This document shows, in pieces, positions 29,159 through 52,743 of a stretch of DNA of 64,000 nt. The DNA lies in NCBI RefSeq assembly GCF_029871235.1, contig NZ_SSOM01000068.1, positions 1 to 64,000 of the forward strand. Reading direction: 5' to 3'. The notes under the pieces were generated by a model that was not told the origin of the DNA, searched no databases, and was given only the letters and a program-made list of their open reading frames with translations. How positions within the stretch are numbered: the first letter of the stretch is position 1; each line of letters starts with the position of its first letter. The DNA is from Pseudomonas sp. BN411. GTDB taxonomy: Bacteria; Pseudomonadota; Gammaproteobacteria; Pseudomonadales; Pseudomonadaceae. A program made the translations under genes and the position numbers.

Positions 29159-29165
29159 GCTTGTC

Positions 29166-31340: not shown

Positions 31341-32080
31341 TGGCTGGAATTCCCAAGCAAGGTCTTCACCGCCTCATAGTCAGCGCTTTGTGGCCGGCGG
31401 ATAGTGAATCGGATGTCGATGCGACGATTCAGCCGATAGTCCTCTTCACCGTCCTGCTGTTTGCTCACAGGGCGAGTCTCGGCATAACCACTGACCGAGA
31501 ACAGCGGTTCGCCATCCTGGTTACTCAGCCTGTTCAGGCGCTCTGCCTCGGGCATCTCATTGCTCCAGAACTGCCAGAGCGAAATTGCGCGAAAGGTCGA
31601 AAGACCCCAGTTGCCCTTGCCCATGAAGCCTGGATACGGGCGATTGTCGGTATGACCTTCGATGAAGATGGTGTCCAGGTAATTGACCCGGTCATCCTGG
31701 CTGATCACTTGATTGATCACCTCCCCAATTTCCAACGCGGTCTGCTGGTAGCGGGGCTGAAGCTCGAAGGCACCAGTATCGAAGCCGAGCAACTCGTTAG
31801 GAATGCGCAACACGGTATGGTTCTCGCTGACCTCTACCTTGATGCCGCGCTGCTGCAGCTTTTTGACGGCCTCGTCGAGAATGGTTCGACGCACCTCCTC
31901 GGCCTTCTGCAACTGGGAAACCTTCTCGTCGAACTGCGCGCTCTTCTCCATCAACTGAAGAATCAGCACTACCGAAGCGAGGATGAAGAGCACCAGAAGC
32001 GCCGACATGATGTCCACGAAGGACTTCCAGTACGGATCCTCATCCTCCATCGGAGTGTCATGGGATTTACGCCAGCGCAT
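31337..32080 (-). CDS. zorB: Zorya ZorB, MotB/OmpA-like stator subunit
   Basis: A 247-residue inner-membrane protein with one transmembrane helix near the N-terminus (VDIMSALLVLFILASVVLIL). The Asp in FVDIMSALL is positioned like the ion-carrying Asp of MotB. A short coiled coil and then an OmpA-like peptidoglycan-binding domain follow (FIEGHTDNRPYPG, FSVSGYAETRPVS, YRLNRRIDIRFT). ZorB pairs with ZorA to make a proton-driven, cell-wall-anchored motor. The start overlaps the zorA stop by one base and the stop overlaps zorC by 4 bp, so translation is coupled. Confidence 0.94.
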   Translation of the reverse strand: MRWRKSHDTPMEDEDPYWKSFVDIMSALLVLFILASVVLILQLMEKSAQFDEKVSQLQKAEEVRRTILDEAVKKLQQRGIKVEVSENHTVLRIPNELLGFDTGAFELQPRYQQTALEIGEVINQVISQDDRVNYLDTIFIEGHTDNRPYPGFMGKGNWGLSTFRAISLWQFWSNEMPEAERLNRLSNQDGEPLFSVSGYAETRPVSKQQDGEEDYRLNRRIDIRFTIRRPQSADYEAVKTLLGNSSQ

Positions 32081-34425
32081 CAGCGGGCCTCCAGTTCATC
32101 GACCACATTGCTGATCGCCTGCACCGCTGCATGCATCTGGTTGGCGAAGCTCATGGTCTCTTTGTTCCACTGGTCCATGCGCTCATGCACCTGATCTCGC
32201 ACCTCGCTGGAGTAGGTACGCAGCCACTGTTCGGCTTGCTGTTCGACGCCTTGCACTTGGTTACGCAGAGCCTCGCCCAGGGCGGTGAACTCGCTACGCA
32301 CGCCAGTAAGGAACTCCTGCTGGTGGCTCCTCATCTCGCCAAATCCGTTGCGCGCCTCGCTGGCGGCCTGCTCAAAGCGCTGTGCACTTTCCAGCAGAGC
32401 ACCCTGAAGCTGCGCCAAAGCAGTGGCTTGGCTCTGCAATTGGCCAGCCAGCTTAGCGTTCTGCTCACCTGTGGATTCGATGCGCTGAGTCACGCTCTCC
32501 AGACGCTCGCCAAGCAACTCGGCCGCCTGGCGAACATTGGTCGAGAGCAGGCCAAGCTGGTTGGCGCTGCTGTCCATATGCCGGCTGCTGACGGCAGCTG
32601 CGTCGCTGGCCTGCTGCAGGCGGCCCATCAGTTGCTGATGCTGCTCAGCCATCTGCCGGCTCTGCTGCTGGGTGGTTTGCACGGCCGCGGCTATGCCTTC
32701 TAAGAGCGCCTGCTGCTGCGCAGCCATGTTTTCCAGCTGCTCGTTGAAGCGTTGCTGGCGCGATAGCTCACGCTGCTCCGCTTGCTGACCATGGCCCGCC
32801 ATCTGTTCATTGAAGCTTCCCAGCAACTTGCCGACCGAGTCTTCTAGTGCCCGCTGCTGGGCGGCAGCGGCTTCGGCAATGGCGCCGATCTGCTGCTGAC
32901 TGGTCTGCCCGAGGCTGCCGATCAACTGCTGTTGCTGGGCCAGTGCGGCAGCCTGCTGCTGCTCGTGACGTTGAGCACGCTCGTGCTCCCGCGTTTCTGC
33001 CGCCCCCATCTGCGAATCCAGCTGGGAGTTCAACGTCATCATCAATCGGGCGAACACTTTCTCCAGATTGCCGTGTCGTTCATTGCCGGCCTCCGCCATG
33101 GCCTGCAACTGCTCACGGCTGGCGCTGGCGAACTTCTCCAGCAGCGCGGACTGGCTCGCACCGGCCTCGGCGAGCGTGCGCTCGAACAGCGCCTGGCGTT
33201 CCTCATCCCGCCTTTGCGCAGAGCCGAGTTGATTGTCCAGTTGGCCCGTCAGTCCACTCATTAGCTCGCCAAAGCGCGCCTCCAGCTGCTGCTGACGCTG
33301 ATCTGCCGAAACGGAAAGTCGCTCCATCTGGGCCTGAAACTCGCCGCTCTGCTGGCGGGCAGCCTCCTGTTGACGCCCCTGTTGATCACTCAGGGTATGG
33401 AACAGCTGATTGAGCCGCTCCGTCATGCCGCCCACGGCGGCGTTCACATCCGCAGCGGCCTGCTGCATCAGATTGCCCTGCTCGCGCCCTGCCGAGGTGA
33501 GGCCTTGTGTGAAGTTGCTCACCAGCTGTTCCAGCACCTGGGTGGATTGCTGGCTAGTGGTGTGGACAAGCGTCTGAATGGCAGGTGCCATGATGTTGTT
33601 CAAAGCATCGGTGAGTGCTGTCTGCATCGCCTCGTTCATACCCGCCAGACTTTCCTGCAGGCGCTCACCGATACGCTCGTGCAGCTCTTGCAGGGCCTCC
33701 TTGGACTCGCGGCTGTAATCGGCGATATGTACCAGCGACTGTTCGGCAGGGATGAGTGGATACAGCGTGTCGATTCGGTGCTGCAGATCCTGAATCCGCC
33801 CCAGTGCCCAGCGCTCAGTGATCTTCTCAACAAGGTTCAGCACAAGGCTGAATCCCACCCCCCATACCGATGCCATGAAGGCAACCGCCGCCCCCTGAAT
33901 CATCACGGAAATACCGTTCCGCAACTGATCGACCCCTGCGGTACTCGCCAACTTCAGATCGGACAGGCCGATGGTTAGGCCTACGAATGTTGCCAGCACG
34001 CCCAGCCCAACCAGCAAGCCAGGCAGAGAACCGAAAAAGCGACTTCCGCTCAGGCCCGGTGCCAGCGTCCGCGCGTTGAAGAAATGTTCGGCATCCAGGG
34101 TATTGAACAACTTCTTGTGATCACTGCTGCTCACCAAGCTGTCGTCGAACTCGTGCCAGAGCGCACCTATGCGTTTGTCCTTAAGTCCAAGTGCTTTCTG
34201 CAGCGTTTCCCGACGATTCAGTGCCAAATTTTCACGGCCCTGCCCAGCGATCAGGCTGTTCAGCGCACGCATGCGCGCCTTGAAGCTCCGCCCGCTGCCT
34301 ATCAACGAGATGACCGAGTAGGTGAAAAGGGCTGCCATGATCAGCCAGAACACGACACCCAGGGCTTCAGTACTGCCGCTCTTTAGCAAGGAAAAGTTGG
34401 GCAACAGGTGATTCAGAAATTCCAT
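32080..34425 (-). CDS. zorA: Zorya ZorA, MotA/ExbB-like motor with long coiled-coil tail
   Basis: A 781-residue protein. Hydrophobic helices lie near residues 20-42 (LGVVFWLIMAALFTYSVISL), 130-155 (LPGLLVGLGVLATFVGLTIG) and 175-200 (VMIQGAAVAFMASVWGVGFS). They form the MotA/TolQ/ExbB-type channel that couples proton flow to rotation with ZorB. The remaining about 550 residues are a Gln/Ala-rich coiled coil, matching the intracellular tail of ZorA. The long antisense frames over this region are shadows of its repetitive codons. It begins 33 bp after hsdS on the same strand, so the Zorya genes appear to be a continuation of the restriction operon. Confidence 0.94.
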   Translation of the reverse strand: MEFLNHLLPNFSLLKSGSTEALGVVFWLIMAALFTYSVISLIGSGRSFKARMRALNSLIAGQGRENLALNRRETLQKALGLKDKRIGALWHEFDDSLVSSSDHKKLFNTLDAEHFFNARTLAPGLSGSRFFGSLPGLLVGLGVLATFVGLTIGLSDLKLASTAGVDQLRNGISVMIQGAAVAFMASVWGVGFSLVLNLVEKITERWALGRIQDLQHRIDTLYPLIPAEQSLVHIADYSRESKEALQELHERIGERLQESLAGMNEAMQTALTDALNNIMAPAIQTLVHTTSQQSTQVLEQLVSNFTQGLTSAGREQGNLMQQAAADVNAAVGGMTERLNQLFHTLSDQQGRQQEAARQQSGEFQAQMERLSVSADQRQQQLEARFGELMSGLTGQLDNQLGSAQRRDEERQALFERTLAEAGASQSALLEKFASASREQLQAMAEAGNERHGNLEKVFARLMMTLNSQLDSQMGAAETREHERAQRHEQQQAAALAQQQQLIGSLGQTSQQQIGAIAEAAAAQQRALEDSVGKLLGSFNEQMAGHGQQAEQRELSRQQRFNEQLENMAAQQQALLEGIAAAVQTTQQQSRQMAEQHQQLMGRLQQASDAAAVSSRHMDSSANQLGLLSTNVRQAAELLGERLESVTQRIESTGEQNAKLAGQLQSQATALAQLQGALLESAQRFEQAASEARNGFGEMRSHQQEFLTGVRSEFTALGEALRNQVQGVEQQAEQWLRTYSSEVRDQVHERMDQWNKETMSFANQMHAAVQAISNVVDELEAR

Positions 34426-34458: not shown

Positions 34459-36153
34459 TCAAGCCACGGCCTGCTCGACGAGCGCGCAGGCCAGCTGTTC
34501 ATTGAGTTGGCGGGCCTGTGTTAGGCGGGATTTCAGTTGGTCGCAGAGGGCCATAAGTTGATCGACCTTGGCGACGATGCGGTGTTGCTCTTTCACAGGA
34601 GGAACTAAAATAAAGAACAAGTACTGTTGAGTGATTGGGACAAAGTCTCGAGTCGTCTGATTCTTTACCTTATCTACTTGTCGAGTAAAAAATACGCTCT
34701 GGAAAAAGTACATCAAATATCGATTAAATATCACTTCGCCATTCGGGCGATAATAAGTTGTTTGCGGACTCAGCACGCATGACCGACTATTAATCGCAGT
34801 ACGCCCAACGCTGCCCTTATGGGTATAAATCACATCCCCCGGCTCAGAAAACCCCACCCTCAATCTTTGAAGCGGCTCCCCAGATATTTTATTTGCCCCC
34901 TCATAATCGATATTAAAGCCATTTACTTGGGCGGCAGTGATAAACGGCAAACCATCCTCTGTCCAGTCTCCTTTGACGGGATGGTTTGCACCATGATTTC
35001 CATCTTTTACGTCGATTACTGCGTTAGCTCTCAACAATTGAGCCGTTGACAATTTTGCCCAGCTCTCCAGTACTGGAAATGTATCAACCCATTGATCCAT
35101 AGCGACATCCTCGGGGATGCCTCGTCTGATCTTTGATGTTCTGACCAGACCTTTTTCAAGCCAAACTTTTGCCGGCTCGTCGCTGACATCTTGCGGCACC
35201 AGTTTGCCCATCACCGCCAGTTGCAGCAGGGTTTGCTTGAGGGCATCGATGCTGGGTTCGGTGGTGAACAGGGTGTGGAAGTGTTCGGCCAGGCGCTGCC
35301 AGCTGGCGGAGAAGTCGGCGGCATCGCTGGCCTGGGTCAGGCTGTCGAGCAGCGCCTGCACCAGTTGGGCGTGGGCGCTTTCGGCACCAACTTGACGGGC
35401 TTCCAGCCGGTCGCATAGAGCCATCAGCTCATCGACTTTGGCGACGATGCGGTGTTGTTCGGCGAGGGGCGGAAGAGGAATTAACCCGCTGAAAAACTTA
35501 CCGTCATTGATGGCTGGGTATGCAATACCCATCTGCACAGACTCAACGTAACGGACAAAAACCGGACTCCTTAGATACCAGAGAAAATATCTTGAGGGCA
35601 TTCCCACGTAGGGGTGAATGATCGCAAACGCTGTACTGGCAATTGGCTCTTGCGCATACACCTCATCGATCACTGCAACGTTCAGCAGATAAGGTCGAAT
35701 AGTTGAATAAATTACCGTTCCGGGTCTAACGACTTTCCGTGCTCGCGATGGCGCGTCGTCAGCCGTGACTACTTGGGGAGCACTGATCACCCCAAGGGCA
35801 TTATCAACAGAGCCAACGTCGATATAAGTGAATTCCTGATCTGGAGTTTTCTGCCCCCAGTCATGGCCAACAGCTGCTACGCGAACCCACGCCCAGTTAG
35901 CAGGCACGTCAAACACCTTCTCTTCTGGGGCAATTTCTGCCAGTTGCTTCTGCTTCTTGATTTTCCCCTCGGCCACCAACCGCGCTTTTTCGTCGGCAAT
36001 CCGTTTAAGCAACTCGCTAGCCGGCTCATCGCCGGAGTCCTGCGACACCAACTTGCCGCGCACCGCCAGCTCCAGAATCAGCTCACGTAGTTTTTTGATG
36101 CCATTGGGTGCACCGGCCAAGAGCGGCAGATTGTCGGTCAGCAACACGGTCAT
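34459..36153 (-). CDS. hsdS: Type I restriction specificity subunit HsdS
   Basis: A 564-residue protein with two target-recognition domains, each followed by the conserved helical spacer. The first half ends with LPPLAEQHRIVAKVDELMAL and the second with VPPVKEQHRIVAKVDQLMAL. This internal repeat is the signature of HsdS, which reads the two halves of the bipartite DNA site and holds HsdM and HsdR. The N-terminal segment before the first domain (GIKKLRELILELAVRGKLVS) is repeated at mid-protein (DALKQTLLQLAVMGKLVPQD). The ATG overlaps the hsdM stop by 4 bp. The first domain and the second domain are A/T-richer than the spacers, as usual for exchanged recognition domains. Confidence 0.94.
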   Translation of the reverse strand: MTVLLTDNLPLLAGAPNGIKKLRELILELAVRGKLVSQDSGDEPASELLKRIADEKARLVAEGKIKKQKQLAEIAPEEKVFDVPANWAWVRVAAVGHDWGQKTPDQEFTYIDVGSVDNALGVISAPQVVTADDAPSRARKVVRPGTVIYSTIRPYLLNVAVIDEVYAQEPIASTAFAIIHPYVGMPSRYFLWYLRSPVFVRYVESVQMGIAYPAINDGKFFSGLIPLPPLAEQHRIVAKVDELMALCDRLEARQVGAESAHAQLVQALLDSLTQASDAADFSASWQRLAEHFHTLFTTEPSIDALKQTLLQLAVMGKLVPQDVSDEPAKVWLEKGLVRTSKIRRGIPEDVAMDQWVDTFPVLESWAKLSTAQLLRANAVIDVKDGNHGANHPVKGDWTEDGLPFITAAQVNGFNIDYEGANKISGEPLQRLRVGFSEPGDVIYTHKGSVGRTAINSRSCVLSPQTTYYRPNGEVIFNRYLMYFFQSVFFTRQVDKVKNQTTRDFVPITQQYLFFILVPPVKEQHRIVAKVDQLMALCDQLKSRLTQARQLNEQLACALVEQAVA

Positions 36154-37625
36154 GCCTGGCGCTCCAGGGCTTCGGTCAACACGGCCTTGAGCTGGTCGCG
36201 CAGCTCGCCGATTTCGCCTTGCAGCGTGGCGTAGTTGCGCAGCAACTCATCTGGGTCGTGGCTGATCTGCTCACCGATATGCGGGTTCTTGCAGTCCAGG
36301 TTCCAGTTGCGCGCCTGCAATTCCTCGACGCTGACCTTCCAAGCAGATTCATTTTCCAGTCGTGTGGCAAAGCCATCGGCCTCACTGCCCCACCAGGCTT
36401 CCTCCACTGCAAACTCCTCAATGCGCATGGGCTTGGTCTTGGAGTAGCTCTTGTAGCCAGCCGGGTACTGATGTTCGTAGAACCACACCTCTTTGGTCGG
36501 TGTGCCCTTGGTGAAGAACAGCAGGTTGGTCTTGATGCCGGTGTAGGGGTTGAACACGCCGTTGGGCAGGCGAACGATGGTGTGTAGGTTGCACTCGGTC
36601 AGTAGCTTTTCCTTGATGCGGCTCTTGATGCCTTCGCCGAACAGGAAGCCGTCGGGCAGCACCACGGCGGCGCGGCCACCGTCTTTCAACAGCTGCATGA
36701 TCAGCACCAGGAACAGATCGGCGGTCTCTCGGGTACGGAAGTTGGTCGGGAAGTTGGTTTCGATGCCATCCTCTTCCATGCCCCCGAACGGCGGGTTGGC
36801 TACGATGCAGTCGACCCGCTCACCTCGCCCCCAACTGGTCAACGGACGGCTCAGAGTGTTGTCGTGCTTGATCTGGCTGGGTACTTCAATGCCGTGCAGG
36901 ATCATGTTGGTGGTGGCCAGGAGGTGCGGTAGCGGCTTCTTCTCCACACCGAAGATGCTGGCCTGAAGGGTGCGCTCGTCCTCGGCGGTTTTGACGTAGT
37001 GCTTGCGCTTGTGCTCGATGGAGCAAGTAAGGAAGCCGCCGGTGCCACAAGCCGGGTCCATAACCTTTTCATCCAGCTTGGGGTCGACCATGCGAACCAT
37101 GAACTCGGTGACCGGGCGCGGGGTGTAAAACTCGCCGGCATTGCCGGCGTTCTGCAAATCGCGCAGCAACTGCTCGTACATGTTGCCGAATTCGTGACGT
37201 TCCTGCGCCTTGTTGAAGTCCACCCCCTCCTGGATCTTGTTGATCACCTGGCGGATGAGCTGCCCGGACTTCATGTAGTTGTAGGCGTCCTCGAACACGT
37301 TACGCACCACATAGGCGGCCGGGGTGGTGCTGTATTCGTGGAGGTTTTGCAGCTGCGGGAACAGGTTGTTGTCGATGAAGCTCTTCAGCTCGTCGCCGGT
37401 TATTCCTTCCGGATCGGCCGCCCAGGTACGCCAGCGGCAGCTTTCGGGAATCGGCGAGCGATAGGCGTCGTCGAGCAGTTCCCACTCCTGCTCGCGGTCG
37501 TCGAAGATCTTGAGGAACAGCATCCACACGAGTTGGCCGATGCGCTGGGCGTCGCCGTCTACGCCGACGTCCTTGCGCATGATGTCCTGGATGGATTTGA
37601 TGGTGCTGGAAAGCGACATGGTCAA
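36150..37625 (-). CDS. hsdM: Type I restriction methyltransferase HsdM
   Basis: A 491-residue N6-adenine methyltransferase. An N-terminal HsdM helical domain (LVWMLFLKIFDDREQEWELL) is followed by the methylase fold: GEFYTPRPVTEFMVRMVDPK, motif I VMDPACGTGGF and motif IV CIVANPPFGG. It methylates host sites with HsdS to protect them from HsdR. The start overlaps the stop of the HNH gene by 4 bp and the stop overlaps hsdS by 4 bp, indicating tight coupling. A second in-frame ATG (37619) is possible. Confidence 0.95.
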   Translation of the reverse strand: MTMSLSSTIKSIQDIMRKDVGVDGDAQRIGQLVWMLFLKIFDDREQEWELLDDAYRSPIPESCRWRTWAADPEGITGDELKSFIDNNLFPQLQNLHEYSTTPAAYVVRNVFEDAYNYMKSGQLIRQVINKIQEGVDFNKAQERHEFGNMYEQLLRDLQNAGNAGEFYTPRPVTEFMVRMVDPKLDEKVMDPACGTGGFLTCSIEHKRKHYVKTAEDERTLQASIFGVEKKPLPHLLATTNMILHGIEVPSQIKHDNTLSRPLTSWGRGERVDCIVANPPFGGMEEDGIETNFPTNFRTRETADLFLVLIMQLLKDGGRAAVVLPDGFLFGEGIKSRIKEKLLTECNLHTIVRLPNGVFNPYTGIKTNLLFFTKGTPTKEVWFYEHQYPAGYKSYSKTKPMRIEEFAVEEAWWGSEADGFATRLENESAWKVSVEELQARNWNLDCKNPHIGEQISHDPDELLRNYATLQGEIGELRDQLKAVLTEALERQA

Positions 37626-38446
37626 TCTCTAAAAAGGTGCTCACGGTGCCAGGCCAGGTAGTCGCGGTGACGCGGCTCGATCTGGCGCAGGCGTAGTTCG
37701 GGGATGATGTTCAGCGCTATGGCACTGGCGGGGTCCAGATCACAGCCAAGCAGGATGTGGCCCTCGTCATCGAAACTGATCAGGCCTTGATCAAAGGCCA
37801 GATCGAGGTTTGGGGTGAGCAGCAGGCCGTTGTACGGGTCCAGCCGCTCGCCGGCACTGGCTGCGCGCCAGGGTTTGATATGCGAAGCGCGCAACAGCTC
37901 AGGCACACTGCAGTCCGTGACTGCGCAACCGCCCCAGTAGGCCAGCAGCGCCTCACGGTAGCCACCCTGACCGATGCGGGCCTTGATCAAAGCTTCACGT
38001 TCCGTGTCAGTCAGTTCACCTTCCACGAGGGGAGACTCCGGACGTGTGCATGTACCAGCCCCAGCTTCCAGGATGAATTGGGCAGAGATTTCATAGCCGA
38101 GCAACTGCAACAGTTGCCGCAGACTGGCAACGTCAGAAACATCCAGAGCAATTCCGAGTCGGCTTTGCGTACCCGATGCCTGTGGAAAGCCCTTGAGATT
38201 GGTGTTCTTGTAGGCCGGATTTGGCACTGTCGGAGTAAGCGTCGTGATCTGACCCCAAACGGCAGACTCCTGGTAATCGGGATGAATCACCAGTGGCTGC
38301 TTGCCAACCGGCTGGTCTTCTCTGCGCTTGATGTAGACAGGTTTATCCAGCGTCGAGTGCTGATAACCACTGGCGTGTACGTTATCGACAATCAAGCGAA
38401 AACCGAGAGCTATCAGCTCTTGGGCAACTTCAAGTGAATTGAGCAT
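37622..38446 (-). CDS. HNH endonuclease-like protein between hsdR and hsdM
   Basis: A 274-residue soluble protein. The C-terminal about 100 residues carry an HNH module: LRASHIKPWRAASAGERLDP, then YNGLLLTPNLDLAFDQGLIS (His, Asn-Gly-L-L-L, Asp). The N-terminal part (VHASGYQHSTLDKPVYIKRR) is a separate, uncharacterised domain. A Cys pair (GGCAVTDCSV) precedes the HNH motif. It is in frame-coupled order: 3 bp after hsdR and 4 bp overlapping hsdM. Such HNH genes are seen within some type I loci. The protein could be an extra nuclease that backs up or modifies restriction, but no direct evidence is available here. Confidence 0.85.
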   Translation of the reverse strand: MLNSLEVAQELIALGFRLIVDNVHASGYQHSTLDKPVYIKRREDQPVGKQPLVIHPDYQESAVWGQITTLTPTVPNPAYKNTNLKGFPQASGTQSRLGIALDVSDVASLRQLLQLLGYEISAQFILEAGAGTCTRPESPLVEGELTDTEREALIKARIGQGGYREALLAYWGGCAVTDCSVPELLRASHIKPWRAASAGERLDPYNGLLLTPNLDLAFDQGLISFDDEGHILLGCDLDPASAIALNIIPELRLRQIEPRHRDYLAWHREHLFRD

Positions 38447-38449
38447 GGG

Positions 38450-40819
38450 TTATCCGTAGAGTTGCTCTTCCAGTTCGTGGAGAGCCTTGGTGTATCCCGC
38501 CTTGCCGCCAAAGGCCTTAACCAGCTCCACCGGTGCGCCGATCTGGCTGAAGGGCGCTAGTTGCAGAATCTTGATGTCTTCGATGTGCTCGATGCCGGTG
38601 TCGGCGTACTTGTCGACCAGCGCCTCCAGCACCTGCCGTGCTGCGCCTGAGTATTTGGCGAAGTAATTGCGCTTCCTCACCTGCTCGGCGCGTTCCCTGC
38701 GGGTGAGCGGCGGCTGGTCGAAGGCGACATGGCAAATCAGATCGAACGGATCGAGCGGCTGGCCACGCTTGGCTGCCACCTCTTCTGCCAGTGCCTCCCA
38801 GAAAATCCCCTTGGCGGCAAGCTCATCAATGATGGCCTTCTTCTGCTCAGCATCGTTCCAGCGTCGCAGGAAGTCGTCGAGCGAGGCGAACTGCTTCTGC
38901 ACGCAGCTGCGGGTGTAGTCACGCAGGGATTCGGTGATCAACTTACCGTCCGGGCCGTAGTACTGCACACGCTCGGCAATCACCGAGATCGGGACGGTGT
39001 CGATGACGTACTTGATCCGTTTCTTGCCCTCCTCTTCTCCGGTGAATTCGATATCACCTGGCTGATCTGGCATGCCGCCCGTAATGCCGTCCTCGCCATC
39101 CAGTGGGCTCTCGGGCGGCACGGGCGACTCGTCGCCTTCGGGGCTATAGATCACCACCGGATCGCCGTCGAAGGCTGGGTCGGCGAATAGCTCGGTAGCC
39201 TTTTTGAAGTCCATGATGGTGAACCAGAACTTGCCGTAGTCCTCATTGATGCGGGTACCCCGGCCGATGATCTGCTTGAACTCGGTCATGGACTTGATGT
39301 GCTGGTCCAGCACCACCAGTTTGCAGGTCTGAGCGTCGACGCCGGTGGTCATCAGTTTGCTGGTGGTGGCGATGACCGGATAGCGCTCTTCCGGATTGAT
39401 GAAGTTGTCCAGCTCGGCCTTGCCTTCCTGGTCATCGCCGGTGATGCGCATGACGTACTTGCGGTTTTCGGCTACACGCTCGGGGCTGAGGTTGACCAGC
39501 GCCTGACGCATACGCTCGGCGTGGTTGATGTCGTCGCAGAAAACGATGGTCTTCTGGTACGGATCGGTGGCCTTGAGGAACTCGGTGACCTTCTGCGCAA
39601 CCAGTTGAGTACGCGCCTCAATCACCAGGTTGCGGTCCATGTCCTTGAGGTTGTAGATGCGGTCCTCGATCAGCTCGCCGTTCTTGTCGAGCATGCCCTT
39701 GGGCGGTCGCCAGCCTTGCAGGTCCTTGTCGAAGTCGATGCGCACCACCTTGTAGGGGGCGAGGAAGCCGTCCTCGATGCCCTGCTTGAGGGTGTAGCTG
39801 TAAACCGGTTCGCCGAAGTAGGTGATGCTGGAAACGTCCTTGGTTTCCTTGGGCGTGGCGGTAAGGCCGATATGGGTAGCACTCGAGAAGTACTCGAGGA
39901 TCTCGCGCCAGGCCGAATCCTCCGCGGCGCTGCCACGGTGGCATTCGTCGATCACCACCAGGTCGAAGAAGTCCGGCGAGAACTGCTTGTAGATGTTCTT
40001 CTCTTCCTCGGCGCCAGTGACAGCCTGGTAGAGCGACAGGTAGATCTCGTAGGAGGTGTCAATCTGCCGCTTGGCGATCTTGGTCATCGCCTGGCCGAAT
40101 GGCTTGAAGTCATTGTTCTTGGTCTGGTCGACCAGGATGTTGCGGTCAGCCAGGAAAAGGATGCGTTTCTTTTGGCGCGACTTCCACAACCGCCAGATGA
40201 TCTGGAACGCGGTATAGGTCTTGCCAGTGCCCGTCGCCATAACCAGCAGGACGCGATCCTGCCCACGCGCTACGGCCTCGACCGTGCGGTTGACGGCGTT
40301 CATCTGGTAGTAGCGCGGCATGCGGCCGGAGCCGTCGTCGTAGTACGGCGCCTCAACCTTCTGCTGGGCTTCGCCCTCAAGGCCCTTCCACTGGCAATAG
40401 CGCTGCCATAGCTCGGCTGGACTGGGGAACTGGTCAAGGCGCAGCTCTGTTTCCACTTGGCTGCCGGTACCGCTGCGGTCGTGAAACAGAAAGCCGTCGC
40501 CATTGCTGGAAAACACAAACGGCACGTCCAGCGCCTCGGCATAACCCAGCGCCTGCTGCATGCCCGAGCCAATGGAGTGCTTGTTGTCCTTCGCCTCAAT
40601 GACAGCGATCGGCAGATTCTGCTGGTGGTAGAGGATGTAGTCCGCTCGGCGCGACTCGCCGCGGCTATGCAGCTTGCCACGCACAATGATGCGGCCTTTG
40701 GTGAAGCTGACTTCCTCGCGTACCTGTTTTTGCAGGTCCCAACCCGCATTCGCAATGGCCGGCGAGATAAATTTGCTGCAGATGTCTCGTTCCGAGAGCG
40801 ACTTCTTGTCCATGTTCAA
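38450..40819 (-). CDS. hsdR: Type I restriction endonuclease/translocase HsdR
   Basis: A 789-residue protein of the EcoEI-like HsdR class. A PD-(D/E)XK nuclease lies near residues 40-90 ([20 protein letters not shown]: Asp, then Glu-Ala-Lys). It is followed by an SF2 motor: Walker A in [22 protein letters not shown] box in [30 protein letters not shown], and [20 protein letters not shown]. The C-terminal helical part ([20 protein letters not shown]) contacts HsdM/S. It translocates and cuts unmodified DNA. It is the first gene of a ten-gene co-directional train that runs through hsdS, zorABCD and two unknown genes. All motifs appear intact. Confidence 0.95.
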
Positions 40820-41629: not shown

Positions 41630-42277
41630 TCAGCCAAGGCTGACGAGCCAAGGCTCAACAACGCGTTTGCGCTGGTCGAGATTCAATGCAGCCACGCCCC
41701 CCTTCACCAGCGCCTTCTTGTCTCCTGTGTGTGGGTTGATGACATAGGTGCCAATGCTTGGCAACGTGTTGGGGTTACCACTCCAACCTAGATTGAATGC
41801 GGCCAGCTTGGGGAACCAGAACTGACTGGCGTAGGGCAGATTGTCATGAATCCACCAGGCCAGTGGGGTCCAGTCGCCTTTCTGGTCGTACCAGGGCAGC
41901 AACGCCGGAACCACGATGCAGGCGGTGGCGCCCAAGTAGCCTTCGACATCGGGGTAGTCCCAGATGTGCGAGGCGTAATTTTTCTCGTTGGTTGCGCAGC
42001 TGTACTGGTTGTTGTTCTCGGCGCCTTTGGCGTTGACTGCCGGAGCACGATAGGCCGAACGGATAACAAGTCGGCCGAAGCGGTCCTGCAACGGCTCCAG
42101 CAGCCGCTCACAAAGCTGGCGCCCTGCTTCAATGGCTCGATCCGGGAAGTCCGGAATATTGGGGATACCCTCGATCTGGCTGATTTCCGAATAGAGGAAA
42201 TCGCGCATGTAGAAATGGGTGGAAAGCTTCACCCGGCCCAGATCTTCCAGCGCCTTGACAGTGGTGGGTTTGTTCAT
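41630..42277 (-). CDS. M15-peptidase-like protein
   Basis: A 215-residue protein starting at ATG 42277, whose ATGA overlaps the preceding stop. It resembles the peptidase M15 group (D-alanyl-D-alanine carboxypeptidase-like): an IRSAYRAPAVNAKGAENNNQ block, then CATNEKNYASHIWDYPD, with H-x-x-D as part of the zinc site, and DNLPYASQFWFPKLAAFNLG. I see no signal peptide, which is odd for a wall enzyme. It is third in the operon after the rmuC-like gene and the exported Asp-rich repeat protein. A cytoplasmic M15-fold hydrolase in a defence island could act on a phage or cell-wall target; that is inference. Confidence 0.75.
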   Translation of the reverse strand: MNKPTTVKALEDLGRVKLSTHFYMRDFLYSEISQIEGIPNIPDFPDRAIEAGRQLCERLLEPLQDRFGRLVIRSAYRAPAVNAKGAENNNQYSCATNEKNYASHIWDYPDVEGYLGATACIVVPALLPWYDQKGDWTPLAWWIHDNLPYASQFWFPKLAAFNLGWSGNPNTLPSIGTYVINPHTGDKKALVKGGVAALNLDQRKRVVEPWLVSLG

Positions 42278-42657
42278 TGGGTTACATCCCTGAGGGCAAG
42301 TATTGGTTGCAGCTGACTCACCGCTGCCGCATACAAGACGCTGGGAGGAGGAGCGATGCGTCCATCCCAACGACCGTCGTTGTCCAAATCACGGTCGGTG
42401 CCGCCCTTGTCGTAATCCCAACGGTCGTCGTTATCGACATCGCGATCCGAACCACCCGCGCCATAATCCCAACGCCCATCATTGTCGAGATCACGGTCAC
42501 TGCCGCCCTTGTCATAGTCCCAACGACCATCGTTATCGACGTCGCGATCCGAACCGCCGCGACCAAAATCCCACCGACCGTCATTGTCCAAATCGCGGTC
42601 TTCGGCTTGGACGAATGCGCAGAATGATAGCGCCAGCAGCATGATGAGCACGTGCAT
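42274..42657 (-). CDS. Exported Asp-rich tandem-repeat protein (putative Ca-binding)
   Basis: A 127-residue protein with a signal peptide (MHVLIMLLALSFCAFVQA). From residue 20 to about 102 it consists of five 17-residue repeats of the form DRD(L/V)DNDGRWDxxxGGS. The D-x-D-N-D-G-x-x-D pattern resembles the calcium loops of thrombospondin type 3 and EF-hand proteins. The tail (RIAPPPSVLYAAAVSQLQPI) is hydrophobic but short. It begins 1 bp after the rmuC-like stop and overlaps the M15-like start by 4 bp, so it is a genuine middle gene. Function unknown. Confidence 0.8.
   Translation of the reverse strand: MHVLIMLLALSFCAFVQAEDRDLDNDGRWDFGRGGSDRDVDNDGRWDYDKGGSDRDLDNDGRWDYGAGGSDRDVDNDDRWDYDKGGTDRDLDNDGRWDGRIAPPPSVLYAAAVSQLQPILALRDVTQ
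42352..42600 (-). repeat. Five tandem 51-bp coding repeats
   Basis: Five consecutive units of 17 codons encoding D-R-D-L/V-D-N-D-G-R-W-D plus a Gly-rich spacer. The units alternate between L- and V-type (CGATCTCGAC/CGATGTCGAT-like), implying duplication in pairs. One unit has Asp for Gly (DNDDRWD). Confidence 0.85.
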
Positions 42658-42658
42658 C

Positions 42659-44233
42659 TCAGACTTCCTCGGGCTCCGGCTCATGTTCGAGCAGGTTGAG
42701 CTCAAGATCCGCTCTATCAACCCACTCCTCGGTAATCTCGCCCTTCACGGCTACGCCCAGCTGGCGGAAATCGCTGACCTGTTTGACCAGGTTGCCCTTG
42801 CCATGCACCAGTTGGTCGCAGGCCTTCTTGTAAGCGTCCTGGGCTTTCTCCAGGCTCTTGCCCACCCCGTCCATGCTGCCAAGGAAAGTACGCAGTTTGT
42901 CGTAGACCTTGGCCGCGCGCTCGGCCAGTTCGGCGGTGTGCTTGTTCTGGTCTTCGAAGCGCCACAACTGGCGCACGATGTTCAGGCTGGTCAGCAAGGT
43001 GGTCGGCGTGGCAACCAGCACGTTCTGTTCGATGGCCTTCTGGAACAGGGTCTCATCAGCCTTGAGCGCCTCGACAAAGGCCGATTCGATCGGCACGAAC
43101 ATGAAGACCATCTCCGGAGCATTCAGCCCAGGCAGGTCGAAGTAGTGCCGGTCGGAAAGCTCTTTGATGCGCTGGCCGACGGCCGCCACATGCTCGGCCA
43201 GGGCTACGCGCCGCTCGGTGTCGTCCTCGGCGTTGATATAGCGGGTGTAGGCGTTGAGCGAAACCTTGGCGTCGATGATCAGGTGCTTGCCCTGAGGCAG
43301 GTGGACGATCACGTCTGGACGCTTGCGACCTTCTTCGTCGGTGAAGCTGACCTCGCGCTCGAAATCGCGGCCCTGGATCAGCCCGGAGCGCTCCAGCACG
43401 TTCTCCAGGATCAGCTCACCCCAATTGCCTTGGGCCTTTTTCTGCCCCTTGAGCGCAGTCGTGAGGTCCTGGGCTTCCTGGGTAATCTGCCGGTTGAGCT
43501 CTTTCAGGTGCAGTAGCTCCTGGGTCAACGCGGCCTGCTGCTGCACGTCCTTGTGGTGGATGTCCTCTACCTTGGTGCGGAAGCCTTCAATCTGCTCGCG
43601 GAAGGGTTTGAGCAGCGCATCCAATGACTGCTGGCTGTGCTGTGAGAAGGCCTGCCCCTTGGCCTCGAAGATCTGACCAGCCAGTTGCTCGAACTCCAGC
43701 TTGAGCTGGTCGCGGCTATCCTTCAGCAGTTGCTGCTGCTCGGCAAAGTGCTGCTGCTTCTGCTCAAGTGTACTGCTCAGGGTCGCGTGCTCTCTGGACA
43801 GATTGGCGAACTTCTCCTGCAGCACCTCATGGCTGTTCTGCTGGCGTTCGTGAGCCTGTTTGAGCTCTTCATGCTGCTGCACAAGCTGTGCATGCTGAGC
43901 ACGTGCAGCGCTAGCCTGGCTCTGCGCTTCCGCCAGTTTGGCACCTAGTTGCTTCAGCTCATCCCGCGCGCCGGCCATTTCCTCCTGGGCATATCCGACT
44001 TGGCGTTGCAGCTGCTCGACATGCGCCTTCTCCGCCCGCACTGCAACGGTCAGCTCGCGTAGTTCCAGCTCCTGCTGCTGGCTGATTACCCGCTGCTGAT
44101 CGAGCAGCACCTGGCAATCCCGCAGCCCTTCCAGCGCCTCTTGCCGACGCATCAGCTGCCAGAACAGCGCCACCCCCAAGGCCAGCACCATGGCAATTGC
44201 GAGTACTCCCACAGACATTCCGATATCAGTCAC
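42659..44233 (-). CDS. RmuC-family protein (island copy)
   Basis: This 524-residue protein starts at GTG 44233, which has AGGAG at the right distance; the longer frame to 44377 would run into the divergent regulator. An N-terminal membrane anchor (SVGVLAIAMVLALGVALFWQ) is followed by a long coiled coil (about 30-210) and the RmuC domain. The domain is recognisable from LKGQKKAQGNWGELILENVL, GRDFEREVSFTDEEGRKRPD, HLIIDAKVSLNAYTRYINAE and MVFMFVPIESAFVEALKADE; PDV...IDAKV has PD-(D/E)XK spacing. RmuC is linked to limiting DNA rearrangements. Here it heads an operon with an exported repeat protein and an M15-like gene, so I expect a specialised, not housekeeping, paralogue. Confidence 0.88.
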   Translation of the reverse strand: MTDIGMSVGVLAIAMVLALGVALFWQLMRRQEALEGLRDCQVLLDQQRVISQQQELELRELTVAVRAEKAHVEQLQRQVGYAQEEMAGARDELKQLGAKLAEAQSQASAARAQHAQLVQQHEELKQAHERQQNSHEVLQEKFANLSREHATLSSTLEQKQQHFAEQQQLLKDSRDQLKLEFEQLAGQIFEAKGQAFSQHSQQSLDALLKPFREQIEGFRTKVEDIHHKDVQQQAALTQELLHLKELNRQITQEAQDLTTALKGQKKAQGNWGELILENVLERSGLIQGRDFEREVSFTDEEGRKRPDVIVHLPQGKHLIIDAKVSLNAYTRYINAEDDTERRVALAEHVAAVGQRIKELSDRHYFDLPGLNAPEMVFMFVPIESAFVEALKADETLFQKAIEQNVLVATPTTLLTSLNIVRQLWRFEDQNKHTAELAERAAKVYDKLRTFLGSMDGVGKSLEKAQDAYKKACDQLVHGKGNLVKQVSDFRQLGVAVKGEITEEWVDRADLELNLLEHEPEPEEV

Positions 44234-44321
44234 AGCGTTTCTCCTTCTGCTAACCCGCCGATAACGGCCGGCTTGAATGACACCATCAGGATATGTAGCG
44301 TAAAGCGACGCATCCACGGTG

Positions 44322-44339
44322 TTTACCCGTACAGGTAAA
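44322..44339. promoter_or_regulatory. Inverted repeat, likely operator of the WYL regulator
   Basis: TTTACC and GGTAAA, inverted, flank a six-base centre that itself contains GTAC. It lies 24 bp before the regulator start and about 90 bp before the rmuC-like gene, in their shared divergent promoter region. CapW/BrxR regulators bind inverted repeats at such positions to repress their defence operon, so this is the best operator candidate. Confidence 0.6.
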
Positions 44340-44362
44340 GTTTTCGAGCAGATGGAGAAGCC

Positions 44363-45238
44363 ATGAAGCGCAAGCAATCAATCGAATCAGTACGCTGGGA
44401 TCTGGCGTTGCGCTATCGCCTGATCGAGACGGTAGCCTGGTGGGAAGGCCGACTGACAACGGGACACCTGATACAGAGCTTTGGTATCAGCCGGCAGCAA
44501 GCGTCGAAAGACATCAACACCTACATCAGCGAGCACGCGCCGAAAAACCTGACATATGACAAGCACCTGAAGGGGTACGTACCCAGCAAGCAGTTCAAGC
44601 CGCTGTTCATTGACGACAGCGCTAGCGCCTACCTGCATCTGCTGAACCAGAACCACGAGCGCGCCCCACATATCGAGGGCCTGGCCTTAGCCTATGCACA
44701 CACCGAAGTGCTGGCCGTACCCGACCGCACGGTACGCCCCGAAGTGTTGCGGCCTTTGCTCAAGGCTTGTCGCGAGGGGCTGCGCCTGGAGTGCGAGTAC
44801 GTGTCGTTCACCACGCCAGATGGCGAAACTCGCCTGATCGCTCCCCACACCCTGGTCTATACCGGGATGCGCTGGCATGTGCGCGCCTACTGCGAGAAAA
44901 ATCGAGACTACCGCGACTTCGTGCTGAGCCGCTTCCGGGGCATTCCGGAACTAATGGATGACCGCACGGAGTACGGTCGAGAGAATGATCCGGGCTGGTA
45001 CACCCTAGTGCAGGTGATTATCGAGCCCGACTCGCGCCTCAAGCCCGAGCAGAGGGCCATTATCGAAGCCGACTACGGCATGCAGGATGGCCAGCTTAGG
45101 ATCGAAACCCGTGGTGCCCTCGTGCAGTACGCACTGCAACGATTCCAGATCGACCCGACCAAGGTGCATACCAAGGCCACGGCACAACAGATTGTAGTGG
45201 TGAACCTCGATGAACTGGGAGCCTGGCTCTATCACTGA
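44363..45238 (+). CDS. WYL-domain regulator of the CapW/BrxR type
   Basis: This 291-residue protein has the N-terminal winged HTH-WYL-C-terminal extension layout. The HTH is LIETVAWWEGRLTTGHLIQS, then FGISRQQASKDINTYISEHA; the WYL domain is REGLRLECEYVSFTTPDGET followed by LIAPHTLVYTGMRWHVRAYC and RDFVLSRFRGI. Such proteins repress anti-phage operons and release on damage or infection. GGAG precedes the ATG. It is divergent from the rmuC-like/Asp-repeat/M15 operon across a 129-bp region that contains a TTTACC/GGTAAA inverted repeat. It may also influence the 716-residue nuclease gene that converges on it. Confidence 0.9.
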   Translation: MKRKQSIESVRWDLALRYRLIETVAWWEGRLTTGHLIQSFGISRQQASKDINTYISEHAPKNLTYDKHLKGYVPSKQFKPLFIDDSASAYLHLLNQNHERAPHIEGLALAYAHTEVLAVPDRTVRPEVLRPLLKACREGLRLECEYVSFTTPDGETRLIAPHTLVYTGMRWHVRAYCEKNRDYRDFVLSRFRGIPELMDDRTEYGRENDPGWYTLVQVIIEPDSRLKPEQRAIIEADYGMQDGQLRIETRGALVQYALQRFQIDPTKVHTKATAQQIVVVNLDELGAWLYH

Positions 45239-45351: not shown

Positions 45352-47502
45352 TCAGCAGAGACTTCGCCAGAGCTCCCCAGACTCGACGACGCGAGTGAAT
45401 CGAACAGCAGAAAAACCCTCTGGAAACAGCGAGCCTTTCTCAACGGAATCGACTTGGTCTAAAGGGCGCAATAGGGCTCGTTCGTCACGTAGGACAACCT
45501 CGAGCACCTCTCGAGAGATGACCTTGAAACCATCCACAACCTGCTCGTCAAACTCGATTGAGGTATCAACGACCCACGCATGCAGATGTGCTTCTGGGTG
45601 CTGACCGTCGTAGCCCAATCGAGAACGCAGCCCCGAATCACTCATCAGCGCATCCACAATCGCTACGCGCTTTCGGCGCAATTGCCATGCAGCCTTGCGC
45701 AGTGTATTGGTCCGATGGAGCCAGACTTCATGCCTGGTCGAACGCAGATAGCCCGACTTCACTTCCAGCAAGAGCAAGATGCCGTCCTGTTGGCAGATCA
45801 AGTCAACCTCTCCCGCATCCTCATCCGCCATCAATGGCGGCCTATAGCCAACCTCAACGGAAAACCCCCTGCGCTTGAAGGCTTCGGCCAGAACCTGCTC
45901 TACCCGCCGCGTTTCTATTTGCAGATCAGCCCTCCGGGCACCTACCCGCCGAAGGTTGTTTAAGGCCGCGGTCAGATTGTTCTGCTGGGCCACGAGCCAG
46001 GGAAACTGAAAGCTGTAGCGCCCGATTTTGTAGAAGGGACGTTCGTACAGCCTCGGAGCCGGCATCCGCGGATTCTGCCTCAATTGCTGACACAGCAATT
46101 TGAGATCACTGGTCCAGAACTTCAGAATCGATTTGGCCGATTCCGTATCTCCATCGGGGAACTCCGTGCAGACGGTCCATCCCTTGATGCGCCGGACCTT
46201 CTCCTCCGCCTCGGACCAGGTCAGGGGGAATCGATTCTCGCCTGTGCGCAATCCATCCAATGCCAACTGACCAAGGGCGTGAGCCACAACCCCCGTCTCA
46301 CTGAAGTGACGCTGAAACGGCCGAATGAACGCTTGCTCAAAAAAGACAGAGGTCAGTTCACTGGCCAAAAGCACATGATGCATCTGGACCTGGGATCCGT
46401 CGCTGAGCGACAGTTGCTCCCCCAGACCATAGATTTGCTGAAGCAGTAGCCGGCTGCGAATCGCCTTGATGAACGCTAGCCGGTTTGCTTCGTGGTTTTC
46501 GGCGGAGCCGATAATTTCATCGACCATGCCGGAATCGACATACTCCTGAACCGCGCGGTTCATCCAGTAGTGCCAGAGAAGCTCATTCTTTCGCTCTGTT
46601 CGCTTCCACTGCACAGTCCCTTCATCCGATTCGTTGAAGATCACGGACTGGCCAGGCCTGAGCTGGTAACGACATTCGGGGTCGAAGCAAAACCAGTCAA
46701 TTGAACCCTCATAGTCGATCCGTTCCTGAGTTGCTTCGACCAAAACGGCCAGCGCCTCAAGGATGGATCGACACTCTGCTGATGCATCTGGACCAGCGAA
46801 GAGTAGAGGCGACAGATGCCTCTGCAAGGACTCCCCCAGGCGCACCTCGCTAAGACGGAAATGCTCCTCATCGCATACCTGCAGCTTCCTCAAAATAATG
46901 CGGTTGTAAGCCTCCCACTGCTTACTTTCAGGAACACCTGCGCCCACTCCGGTGAGTTCTTGATAGGCCAGGATGCTCAGGTACGAGAACAACTCCAGCA
47001 GCGACAACTGCTTTAGCTGGCCCTCCATTTGGCGTATGAGCTCATCAAATGGCTTGAGCTGGTCAAGCAGACGATCGCACACACCAAAGAAGATCTGCCA
47101 ATCGAGGCTGATCAAGCTTGCACGCAAATAAGCCCATAGAGGCGAGTCAGGCCGCTCAAAAAGCTTCGAATAGCGAATTGCCCATCTAAGGGTCTCGGGG
47201 TTGTGTGTTGCCAGATGTTCAAGCAATTCGACGCTGATTGCATTGTCAAAATGCAGTACACGACTCAAGGCCAGGCTGGCCAAGCCAGCACCTTGCACCG
47301 CCGACACATCCCACCAGAACGGAGCTGAAGTTAAGCCGACTGCACGATCAAACGCAGAGAGATTCTTACCGCTAGGTCGCTGATCCAGAAAATGGTGCAG
47401 GCACTCATCCAGTGCTTGCGCATTGCTGCTCAGTGACTGGCTGACCGTGTAGATCGATAGGTAATGCTGCAGGCACCGATTTCCCTTCTCGTCCACCCAC
47501 AA
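45352..47502 (-). CDS. Large unknown protein with a C-terminal PD-(D/E)XK nuclease motif
   Basis: A 716-residue soluble protein. The first about 480 residues are mainly helical with no motif I recognise. A short block RYQLRPGQSVIFNESDEGTV near 280 includes FCFDPECRY, which may be part of a small metal site. Near residues 560-585 EVGYRPPLMADEDAGEVDLI, then CQQDGILLLLEVKSGYLR, has the order of a PD-(D/E)XK nuclease (Glu, Asp, Glu-Val-Lys). WQLRRKRVAIVDALMSD and a C-terminal cap follow. It is a single gene, convergent with the WYL regulator. It may be a stand-alone defence nuclease; I cannot place it in a named system. Confidence 0.8.
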   Translation of the reverse strand: MWVDEKGNRCLQHYLSIYTVSQSLSSNAQALDECLHHFLDQRPSGKNLSAFDRAVGLTSAPFWWDVSAVQGAGLASLALSRVLHFDNAISVELLEHLATHNPETLRWAIRYSKLFERPDSPLWAYLRASLISLDWQIFFGVCDRLLDQLKPFDELIRQMEGQLKQLSLLELFSYLSILAYQELTGVGAGVPESKQWEAYNRIILRKLQVCDEEHFRLSEVRLGESLQRHLSPLLFAGPDASAECRSILEALAVLVEATQERIDYEGSIDWFCFDPECRYQLRPGQSVIFNESDEGTVQWKRTERKNELLWHYWMNRAVQEYVDSGMVDEIIGSAENHEANRLAFIKAIRSRLLLQQIYGLGEQLSLSDGSQVQMHHVLLASELTSVFFEQAFIRPFQRHFSETGVVAHALGQLALDGLRTGENRFPLTWSEAEEKVRRIKGWTVCTEFPDGDTESAKSILKFWTSDLKLLCQQLRQNPRMPAPRLYERPFYKIGRYSFQFPWLVAQQNNLTAALNNLRRVGARRADLQIETRRVEQVLAEAFKRRGFSVEVGYRPPLMADEDAGEVDLICQQDGILLLLEVKSGYLRSTRHEVWLHRTNTLRKAAWQLRRKRVAIVDALMSDSGLRSRLGYDGQHPEAHLHAWVVDTSIEFDEQVVDGFKVISREVLEVVLRDERALLRPLDQVDSVEKGSLFPEGFSAVRFTRVVESGELWRSLC

Positions 47503-47959: not shown

Positions 47960-48637
47960 TCAGATCCGGCTGTAACCACAGTTACGAGTACGGCCGAAGT
48001 ACTCCTTGGTGGCGTTTTTGCAGAAGTAGCTCACCCGGTGAAAAAAGGCCGCCAATCCAGGATCGCCCTCCCCCCTGTTCAAATGAAAGGAGGCGTTGTC
48101 CGGTACGTTCACCAGACCACTGACGTCAAGAATGGATAACTGCAAGGCTCGGGCCCAAGCCTCCTGCAGGCGATGGAACATATTGACTCGCTCAGTCTCC
48201 AGTCTACCCAGCGTGTGATAAGCATCCCGGTTGAGCATAAACGCGAAGTGGTAATGGGGCTGACCTTGCCCGCTAACCTCACGCACCCAGAAGTAGCGGA
48301 GCTCTGTCGCATGAACACGCCGCTCCTCACGTGCGGCTCTGTCCTGATCGGCTTTCAGCTGCGCCCCGAATGAGTCAATGAAGCGTCGAATCACCGTGTT
48401 GTGCACGAAGTCGTCGGGCATGCGATAGCCGCTAGGAAGCTTCAAGTCGACTCTAGCTGCGAAGACGCGAGGATAAGCCATGAGCGCTTTCTCGGTGACC
48501 AGCTGGAACTTCTCCAGGTACTCAGTAATGAAGGGGCCCTTCTCGACCATCAGCGGCAGACCATAGTAGTCGGGCTGGCACCAGAGGGTCAGATTGCTAT
48601 TGCCGGGATGGCGCTTTGGGGTGGCCTGGGTAGACAT
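47960..48637 (-). CDS. Inovirus Gp2-like (YagK/YfjJ C-terminal family) protein
   Basis: A 225-residue protein starting at ATG 48637 with ACGGAGTAACCCC before it. The sequence has the family's RVDLKLPSGYRMPDDFVHNT, then RYFWVREVSGQGQPHYHFAF and DPGLAAFFHRVSYFCKNATK. The H-Y-H-F motif resembles the HUH metal site of rolling-circle replication proteins. This family occurs on tRNA-borne islands and in inoviruses next to AlpA, as here (AlpA lies 330 bp upstream). It may nick the element's own DNA for replication or mobilisation, which would matter because no relaxase is visible elsewhere. Activity is not proven. Confidence 0.85.
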   Translation of the reverse strand: MSTQATPKRHPGNSNLTLWCQPDYYGLPLMVEKGPFITEYLEKFQLVTEKALMAYPRVFAARVDLKLPSGYRMPDDFVHNTVIRRFIDSFGAQLKADQDRAAREERRVHATELRYFWVREVSGQGQPHYHFAFMLNRDAYHTLGRLETERVNMFHRLQEAWARALQLSILDVSGLVNVPDNASFHLNRGEGDPGLAAFFHRVSYFCKNATKEYFGRTRNCGYSRI

Positions 48638-48928
48638 GGGGTTACTCCGTTGCATTGGTTTCATACCACCTGCAACGGAATATTTTTTAACCAAACACGG
48701 CAGGCCCAGGGCAGTGCTTCGATCTCAATGCCCTACGACAAGGTGAAACGCCGAGGCAGATTAAGCTGTGGGCAATACGGGTGGATTAGTGATCTGGATG
48801 ATCATGGAAATGCCCCTAAAAGCAGACTGCCCGCGCCGACATCAGTACCAAGAAAATCTCCGGAATTTCCCGAACATTCGAATCAGAATCCTGCAGCCGC
48901 CCCAAGACTCACCCACTCCGACTTAAAA

Positions 48929-52665: not shown

Positions 52666-52743
<78 letters not shown>

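Follow-up and report, generated by a model that had tools for sequence, protein, structure and literature searches.

A Pseudomonas operon that matches the anti-phage system Shield in gene make-up and has an additional gene for an exported-looking aspartate-repeat protein

Shield is an anti-phage system of Pseudomonas described by Macdonald et al. in 2023 (PMC10270631; statements on this and the other cited papers refer to the portions of each text that were available). ShdA, a membrane-bound nuclease with an RmuC domain, degrades DNA in vitro and suffices alone for defense, and ShdB, an M15-like protein without a signal peptide, is an interaction partner of ShdA that reduces ShdA levels. Two-hybrid analysis mapped the ShdB contact to the N terminus of ShdA, and growth of Escherichia coli was unimpaired by ShdB targeted to the periplasm. 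Four subtypes consist of ShdA (I), ShdA and ShdB (II), ShdA, ShdB and ShdC (III) or ShdA, ShdD and ShdE (IV); WYL genes are often found near Shield, which is known only from Pseudomonas species (PMC10270631). ShdA genes also occur inside type I restriction-modification (RM) operons of Pseudomonas (PMC11090510). The available text of PMC12629846 mentions Shield by name only, and PMC10270631 was the sole paper on Shield components among the matches listed. Here we describe an operon of three genes, facing a gene for a WYL regulator, within a window of 64,000 nucleotides from Pseudomonas sp. BN411 (contig NZ_SSOM01000068.1, assembly GCF_029871235.1).

The three minus-strand genes were tightly packed, as a first-pass annotation of the window had claimed. 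A single base separated the TGA of the rmuC-like gene, ending at 42659, from the ATG of the repeat gene, beginning at 42657, and the TGA of the latter overlapped the ATG of the M15-like gene by 4 bases (ATGA, 42274-42277) (Table 1). Alternative longer open reading frames (ORFs) of 572, 148 and 246 amino acids represent the same three genes with a start further upstream. The WYL gene is divergent and has a promoter region in common with the operon, across an inverted repeat that had also been recognized in the annotation. An RmuC domain was detected in the product of the first gene (E value of 1.1e-101), with a PD...DAK motif at residues 306-323; in the form PD...D[AS]K, this motif was present in 47 of 47 rows of an RmuC alignment. 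Hydropathy analysis identified a hydrophobic N-terminal segment (residues 6-24, mean of 2.56) that is predicted to be a membrane anchor, and a coiled coil was predicted as well. The anchored RmuC-family nuclease-like protein of the annotation was borne out by these results, as was its CapW/BrxR-type regulator: the divergent gene product contained a WYL domain (E value of 1.4e-14) and matched the solved structures of BrxR (7t8k, E value of 5e-60) and CapW (7tb6, E value of 9e-40).

Because an anchored RmuC nuclease is followed by an M15-fold protein that lacks a signal peptide, with a WYL gene alongside and a defense island of the Pseudomonas family as the setting, the operon was assigned to Shield. 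The rmuC-like gene (shdA) is distinct from the housekeeping gene, and the partner with a predicted M15 fold, which lacks an N-terminal hydrophobic leader by hydropathy, is encoded 3' of it (shdB). Overall, we put at about 0.86 the probability that this operon has the gene make-up of Shield and likely works as Shield does. The combination, which the annotation had not recognized as any familiar defense system, is thus one published in 2023. Gene content, order and spacing are established for this operon, as are the conservation of its palindrome and its recurrence; neighborhoods elsewhere hold the same genes, the co-occurrence that had been proposed as a test. The assignment is likely to hold on the basis of gene content, order and features set against the published descriptions, rather than of placement by sequence among the ShdA proteins of subtypes I to IV.

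Shield II likewise has an anchored RmuC protein, a downstream M15-fold partner without a signal peptide, a nearby WYL gene and a defense island setting in Pseudomonas relatives, but it has no counterpart of the gene for an exported-looking Asp-repeat protein that lies here between shdA and shdB. Shield III likewise has three genes, for ShdA, ShdB and one more protein, ShdC, which the available text of PMC10270631 names without giving its nature or its place in the operon. The length of ShdA does not reveal the subtype, as constructs ended at residue 523 for III and 524 for II and the window protein has 524 residues. The operon is probably a Shield in which one further gene separates shdA from shdB, most likely Shield III or a variant close to it. 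The ShdA associated with DISARM also has an RmuC domain, but its N terminus is longer and its gene lies inside the DISARM operon (PMC10270631), whereas the window shdA encodes 524 residues, heads its own operon and has type I RM and Zorya genes as neighbors. The ShdA of RM operons shares the RmuC domain and adjoining type I RM genes (PMC11090510), whereas hsdR in the window starts about 810 bases after shdB.

The inverted repeat at 44322-44339 is made up of TTTACCCGT and ACAGGTAAA. Its conservation was examined in 78 regions upstream of WYL genes, taken from 80 named WYL loci (a selection out of 178) minus three whose match did not begin at residue 1 (L111, L113 and L121) plus the window. The palindrome pattern was present in 41 of these regions, the window included, always at exactly -41 from the WYL start; among 3,900 sequences shuffled by single bases, 1 contained it. 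In many of the remaining 37 regions the right half, ACAGGTAAA, is retained and the left half is altered, and in 42 of the 78 five or more positions agreed between the 6-base arms at -41. This conservation suggested that the palindrome is an operator bound by the WYL regulator. BrxR, which binds inverted repeats and represses (PMC9122601), and CapW are relatives of the regulator by sequence and likewise adjoin defense genes with an upstream inverted repeat. The window palindrome has 18 bp and no spacer, whereas the arms bound by BrxR of pEFER have 11 bp each and are separated by a spacer of 5 bp (PMC9122601).

The Asp-repeat protein contained five 17-residue units of the form DRDxDNDGxWDxxxGGx, encoded by DNA repeats spaced exactly 51 nt apart, and had a net charge of -15. 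A hydrophobic leader was evident from hydropathy, and export was predicted by eye. The five repeats and the predicted export of the annotation stood; four units matched DxDxDGxxD and the remaining one reads DNDD. No Pfam match was found for this protein, its profile gave only chance-like matches to solved structures (best E value of 0.035), and its fold model was unusable (predicted local distance difference test score of 50) and supports no claim of metal binding. In a set of 398 genomes of the family, the protein was present in 13 (L and G numbers are our labels for loci and genomes). The gene lay between full-length shdA and shdB in G000, G003, G179 and G334, although the ORF of G179 was short (84 amino acids) and ended about 75 bases before shdB. 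It adjoined an ADP-ribosylglycohydrolase gene in G026 and for one of two copies in G081, the second of which had no marker genes near it. In G163 the gene adjoined a split WYL gene and shdA was absent, in G376 a WYL gene was 8 kb away, and in G002 there was a short match close to a remnant of RmuC; copies of 55 to 56% identity stood in another setting (G004, G008, G009 and G017). Among the named WYL loci it was present in 5 of 80 (L063, L073, L079, L081 and L096). An ADP-ribosylglycohydrolase gene occupied the place of shdA opposite the WYL gene in L063 (8764-9831), L081 (8765-9832) and L103, and preceded the repeat gene where there was no WYL gene in L181 and L182; the family was called from PF03747 in L063 (E value of 4e-67) and by eye in L103.

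Several points weigh against the assignment to Shield with the repeat gene as a component. Against the two phages of Figure 2 of PMC10270631, the published Shield III was not protective, and no phage of that collection was found to be sensitive to it. In addition, relatives of ShdB are often found without ShdA. The repeat gene adjoins the ADP-ribosylglycohydrolase gene, without shdA or shdB, in L063, L081, L181 and L182, and lies by a WYL gene without shdA in L096 and L184. It could then be a passenger of WYL-headed defense cassettes, with a plain Shield II of ShdA and ShdB as the working unit, and in L207 the repeat gene is indeed absent between the two. We regard this account as somewhat doubtful, as the gene sat between shdA and shdB in 4 of the 5 genomes of the 398-genome set that were seen with full-length shdA followed by shdB, a count drawn from those of the 80 genomes with ShdA-type matches whose gene surroundings were examined. 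The fifth genome, G278, had no repeat gene between the two, and in G193 and G220 shdA was at the WYL gene with no adjoining shdB. The repeat gene repeatedly accompanies defense cassettes headed by a WYL gene, Shield among them, and is not Shield specific. We nevertheless infer that its product belongs to the Shield system in this operon, where it may correspond to the published ShdC or to an unreported accessory protein.

A separate question was whether ShdB is a protease. Its M15 fold is a prediction from a model and structure comparison, in which 1lbu matched at the level of fold with 10% identity. A Foldseek search of the model against the PDB gave nothing better than an E value of 3, the M15 relation coming from a second comparison, and the ShdB profile found nothing credible by sequence among solved structures (best E value of 1). 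Phage relatives of ShdB (L238 and L242-L244) carry an HxxxxAxD zinc motif and a later His, neither of which was found in ShdB, where the alignment is uncertain around the site. The annotation was therefore right about the absence of a signal peptide and the M15 likeness, but its hydrolase label was corrected; of the two proteins that it considered suited to the envelope, the repeat protein fits and ShdB does not, given the published interaction with ShdA and the harmlessness of periplasmic ShdB to E. coli growth. Slightly below even, in our estimate, are the odds that ShdB is a catalytically altered M15 protein which binds and holds ShdA rather than a protease which destroys it. In the computed alignment, the zinc His and Asp of the phage relatives fell on Ser94 and Asn101 and the later His on a gap; His105 and Cys121, which were invariant in 27 of 27 aligned proteins (numbering counts Met as 2), could stand in for the first two zinc ligands, by eye and not from that alignment. 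However, the alignment with the phage profile is reliable over residues 18-92 only, and confidence in the model is lowest at about residues 95-97, so that the zinc site was not located, and less ShdA was seen when ShdB was present (PMC10270631).

An origin of shdA as the host's housekeeping rmuC gene, moved into the island, was the case that the annotation had named as refuting its proposal. A protein of the ShdA lineage was the sole RmuC in 15 of 28 scanned genomes, but this host has two RmuC proteins. The second, on contig C37, is of the usual housekeeping type, is 41% identical to the window ShdA and grouped with the usual Pseudomonas RmuC proteins across a split with support of 100/99. Relocation is therefore extremely improbable and was rejected for this host. 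A further proposal, which we consider unlikely, is that Shield, the type I RM genes and Zorya form one regulon under the WYL protein. The three systems lie in series on one strand behind one palindrome, Zorya directly after the RM operon, and L017 (in G003) retains a Shield of the same order followed by Zorya with only a 23-amino-acid hsdR remnant between them; however, the distance between shdB and hsdR leaves room for a promoter.

The lineage of ShdA was examined further by RmuC searches. Matches to the window ShdA with an E value of at most 1e-120 were present in 80 of the 398 genomes, and among named whole genomes the closest ShdA-type proteins were those of Metapseudomonas (95 to 96%); a partial RmuC named P. 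aeruginosa (P0200) was 78% identical over 79% of the query. The scan of 28 genomes, 23 picked for a ShdA-type match and 5 without one, detected the ShdA type only in 15 (one of which, G054, is just 78% complete), both types in 8 and the usual type only in 5. Type I RM-like genes flanked the ShdA-type gene in one genome of the first group (G085) and one of the second (G197), while no RM genes flanked the RmuC gene of G274 in L205. RmuC domain proteins of 709 and 660 amino acids were observed between HsdR-like and HsdM-like genes (L204:1380-9686 and L209:406-8214). In an unrooted tree of 47 RmuC domains (drawn with a midpoint root for display; branches of G028 and Enterobacter are long), the split separated 33 rows, comprising ShdA, the "only RmuC" rows, Halopseudomonas, Pseudoalteromonas and RM-embedded proteins, from 14, comprising 13 usual Pseudomonas RmuC proteins and that of Enterobacter. 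ShdA rows fell within the 33-row side and were not resolved as a single clade. In P. mangrovi (L110, the same locus as L199), the only RmuC gene lay between nadC (by eye) and a WYL gene 1.6 kb away, and in L202 and L203 the RmuC gene directly adjoined the WYL gene. These results suggested capture of ShdA from the RmuC lineage that certain other genomes have as their sole RmuC, perhaps where an RmuC gene already stood beside a WYL gene. Searches for phage carriage of ShdA gave only weak matches (5 records, all below 60% identity), and no near match to the operon was found in E. coli genomes.

RmuC matches were present in 13 of the 80 named WYL loci, 6 at full length and 7 with the N terminus only (72 to 87 residues). 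The short matches were ORFs, mostly of 95 amino acids, with similar ends. For six of these anchor-only ORFs (15 pairs), the ratio of nonsynonymous to synonymous substitution rates was 0.12 to 0.25 in 10 usable pairs, four saturated pairs and one near-identical pair being set aside, a range that indicates purifying selection on the coding sequence. The free-standing anchor-only gene occupied the position of shdA at several loci. Of the seven, full-length shdB was next in L057, L058 and L114 and a remnant in L077, while no ShdB match followed in L064, L066 and L117. The P. aeruginosa plasmid pPAG5 (L011) also carries an anchor-only shdA and shdB pair. Close anchor-only copies (68 to 77%) were detected in 4 of the 398 genomes, with shdB adjoining in 4 of 4 (G255 was equated with the L057 locus from coordinates), and weaker short relatives (35 to 52%) occurred in other genomes, some away from WYL genes. 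Anchor-only ShdA retains the N terminus, where the published two-hybrid data place the ShdB contact (PMC10270631), and no report of it was found in the cited papers or among the matches listed.

Table 1. Coordinates of the Shield operon, its regulator and the adjoining defense systems in the window
Feature	Position	Strand	Remarks
shdA-like (rmuC-like) gene	42659-44233	-	GTG start, 524 amino acids; PADLOC RTasRmuC, E value of 2.2e-111
Asp-repeat gene	42274-42657	-	127 amino acids; between the shdA-like and shdB-like genes
shdB-like (M15-like) gene	41630-42277	-	215 amino acids; no N-terminal hydrophobic leader
WYL gene, BrxR/CapW type	44363-45238	+	291 amino acids; divergent from operon
Palindrome TTTACCCGTACAGGTAAA	44322-44339		Predicted WYL operator; starts 41 bases 5' of the WYL start codon
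Type I RM genes	34459-40819	-	hsdR 38450-40819, HNH gene 37622-38446, hsdM 36150-37625, hsdS 34459-36153
Complete type I Zorya	26129-34425	-	zorA 32080-34425, zorB 31340-32083, zorC 29166-31340, zorD 26129-29158

Other genes were observed in the window and at related loci. Relatives of the HNH endonuclease gene of the type I RM operon occupy the corresponding position in L011 and L276. A 716-amino-acid protein (45352-47502, minus strand) contained a NERD-like part (PADLOC "Viperin-associated NERD," E value of 2e-13), and NERD-like relatives were found near the WYL gene in 8 of the 80 named loci, that of L062 being a 105-residue match at a contig end. The first half of a 1,707-amino-acid protein (13510-18633, minus strand) matched DpdF/PsyrT models, and the second half matched GajB-type helicase models. 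A YagK/YfjJ-type protein is encoded at 47960-48694 (minus strand), a few kilobases from a tRNA-Pro gene (52666-52742). An SMC-like gene lies 3' of shdB or shdA in L019 (3876-7601), L071 and L076; a reading of the 1,241-amino-acid protein of L019 as Wadjet JetC was not supported, with 0 PADLOC families and a Pfam match to DUF3584. Genes of 117 and 258 amino acids without a Pfam match, between shdA and the SMC-like gene of L076, could be shdD and shdE of Shield IV.

By analogy with the published system, this copy of Shield would be active as follows. The WYL regulator would bind the palindrome and hold the operon down, and infection would release repression. Anchored ShdA would then degrade phage DNA, and ShdB would hold ShdA in check. 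The repeat protein would be exported, would bind divalent metal through its acidic loops and would act outside the membrane as a sensor or to restrain the anchor, a weak step given how few residues of ShdA would be exposed on that side. A broader proposal, which we consider quite improbable, is that the conserved core of Shield is the membrane anchor and not the nuclease. Anchor-only ShdA paired with ShdB would then make up a Shield without a nuclease, placed behind a WYL switch and sensing damage to the envelope, and the Asp-repeat protein, once exported, would be a periplasmic sensor common to Shield and ADP-ribosylglycohydrolase cassettes.

With the assignment to Shield, an operon formerly regarded as unknown is placed with an experimentally tested system, and the conserved palindrome makes its induction testable. 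The failure to find the zinc motif in ShdB bears on whether this protein degrades ShdA, and the anchor-only relative of ShdA could separate sensing from cutting. Furthermore, the RmuC lineage kept by other genera as their only RmuC is a plausible source of ShdA.
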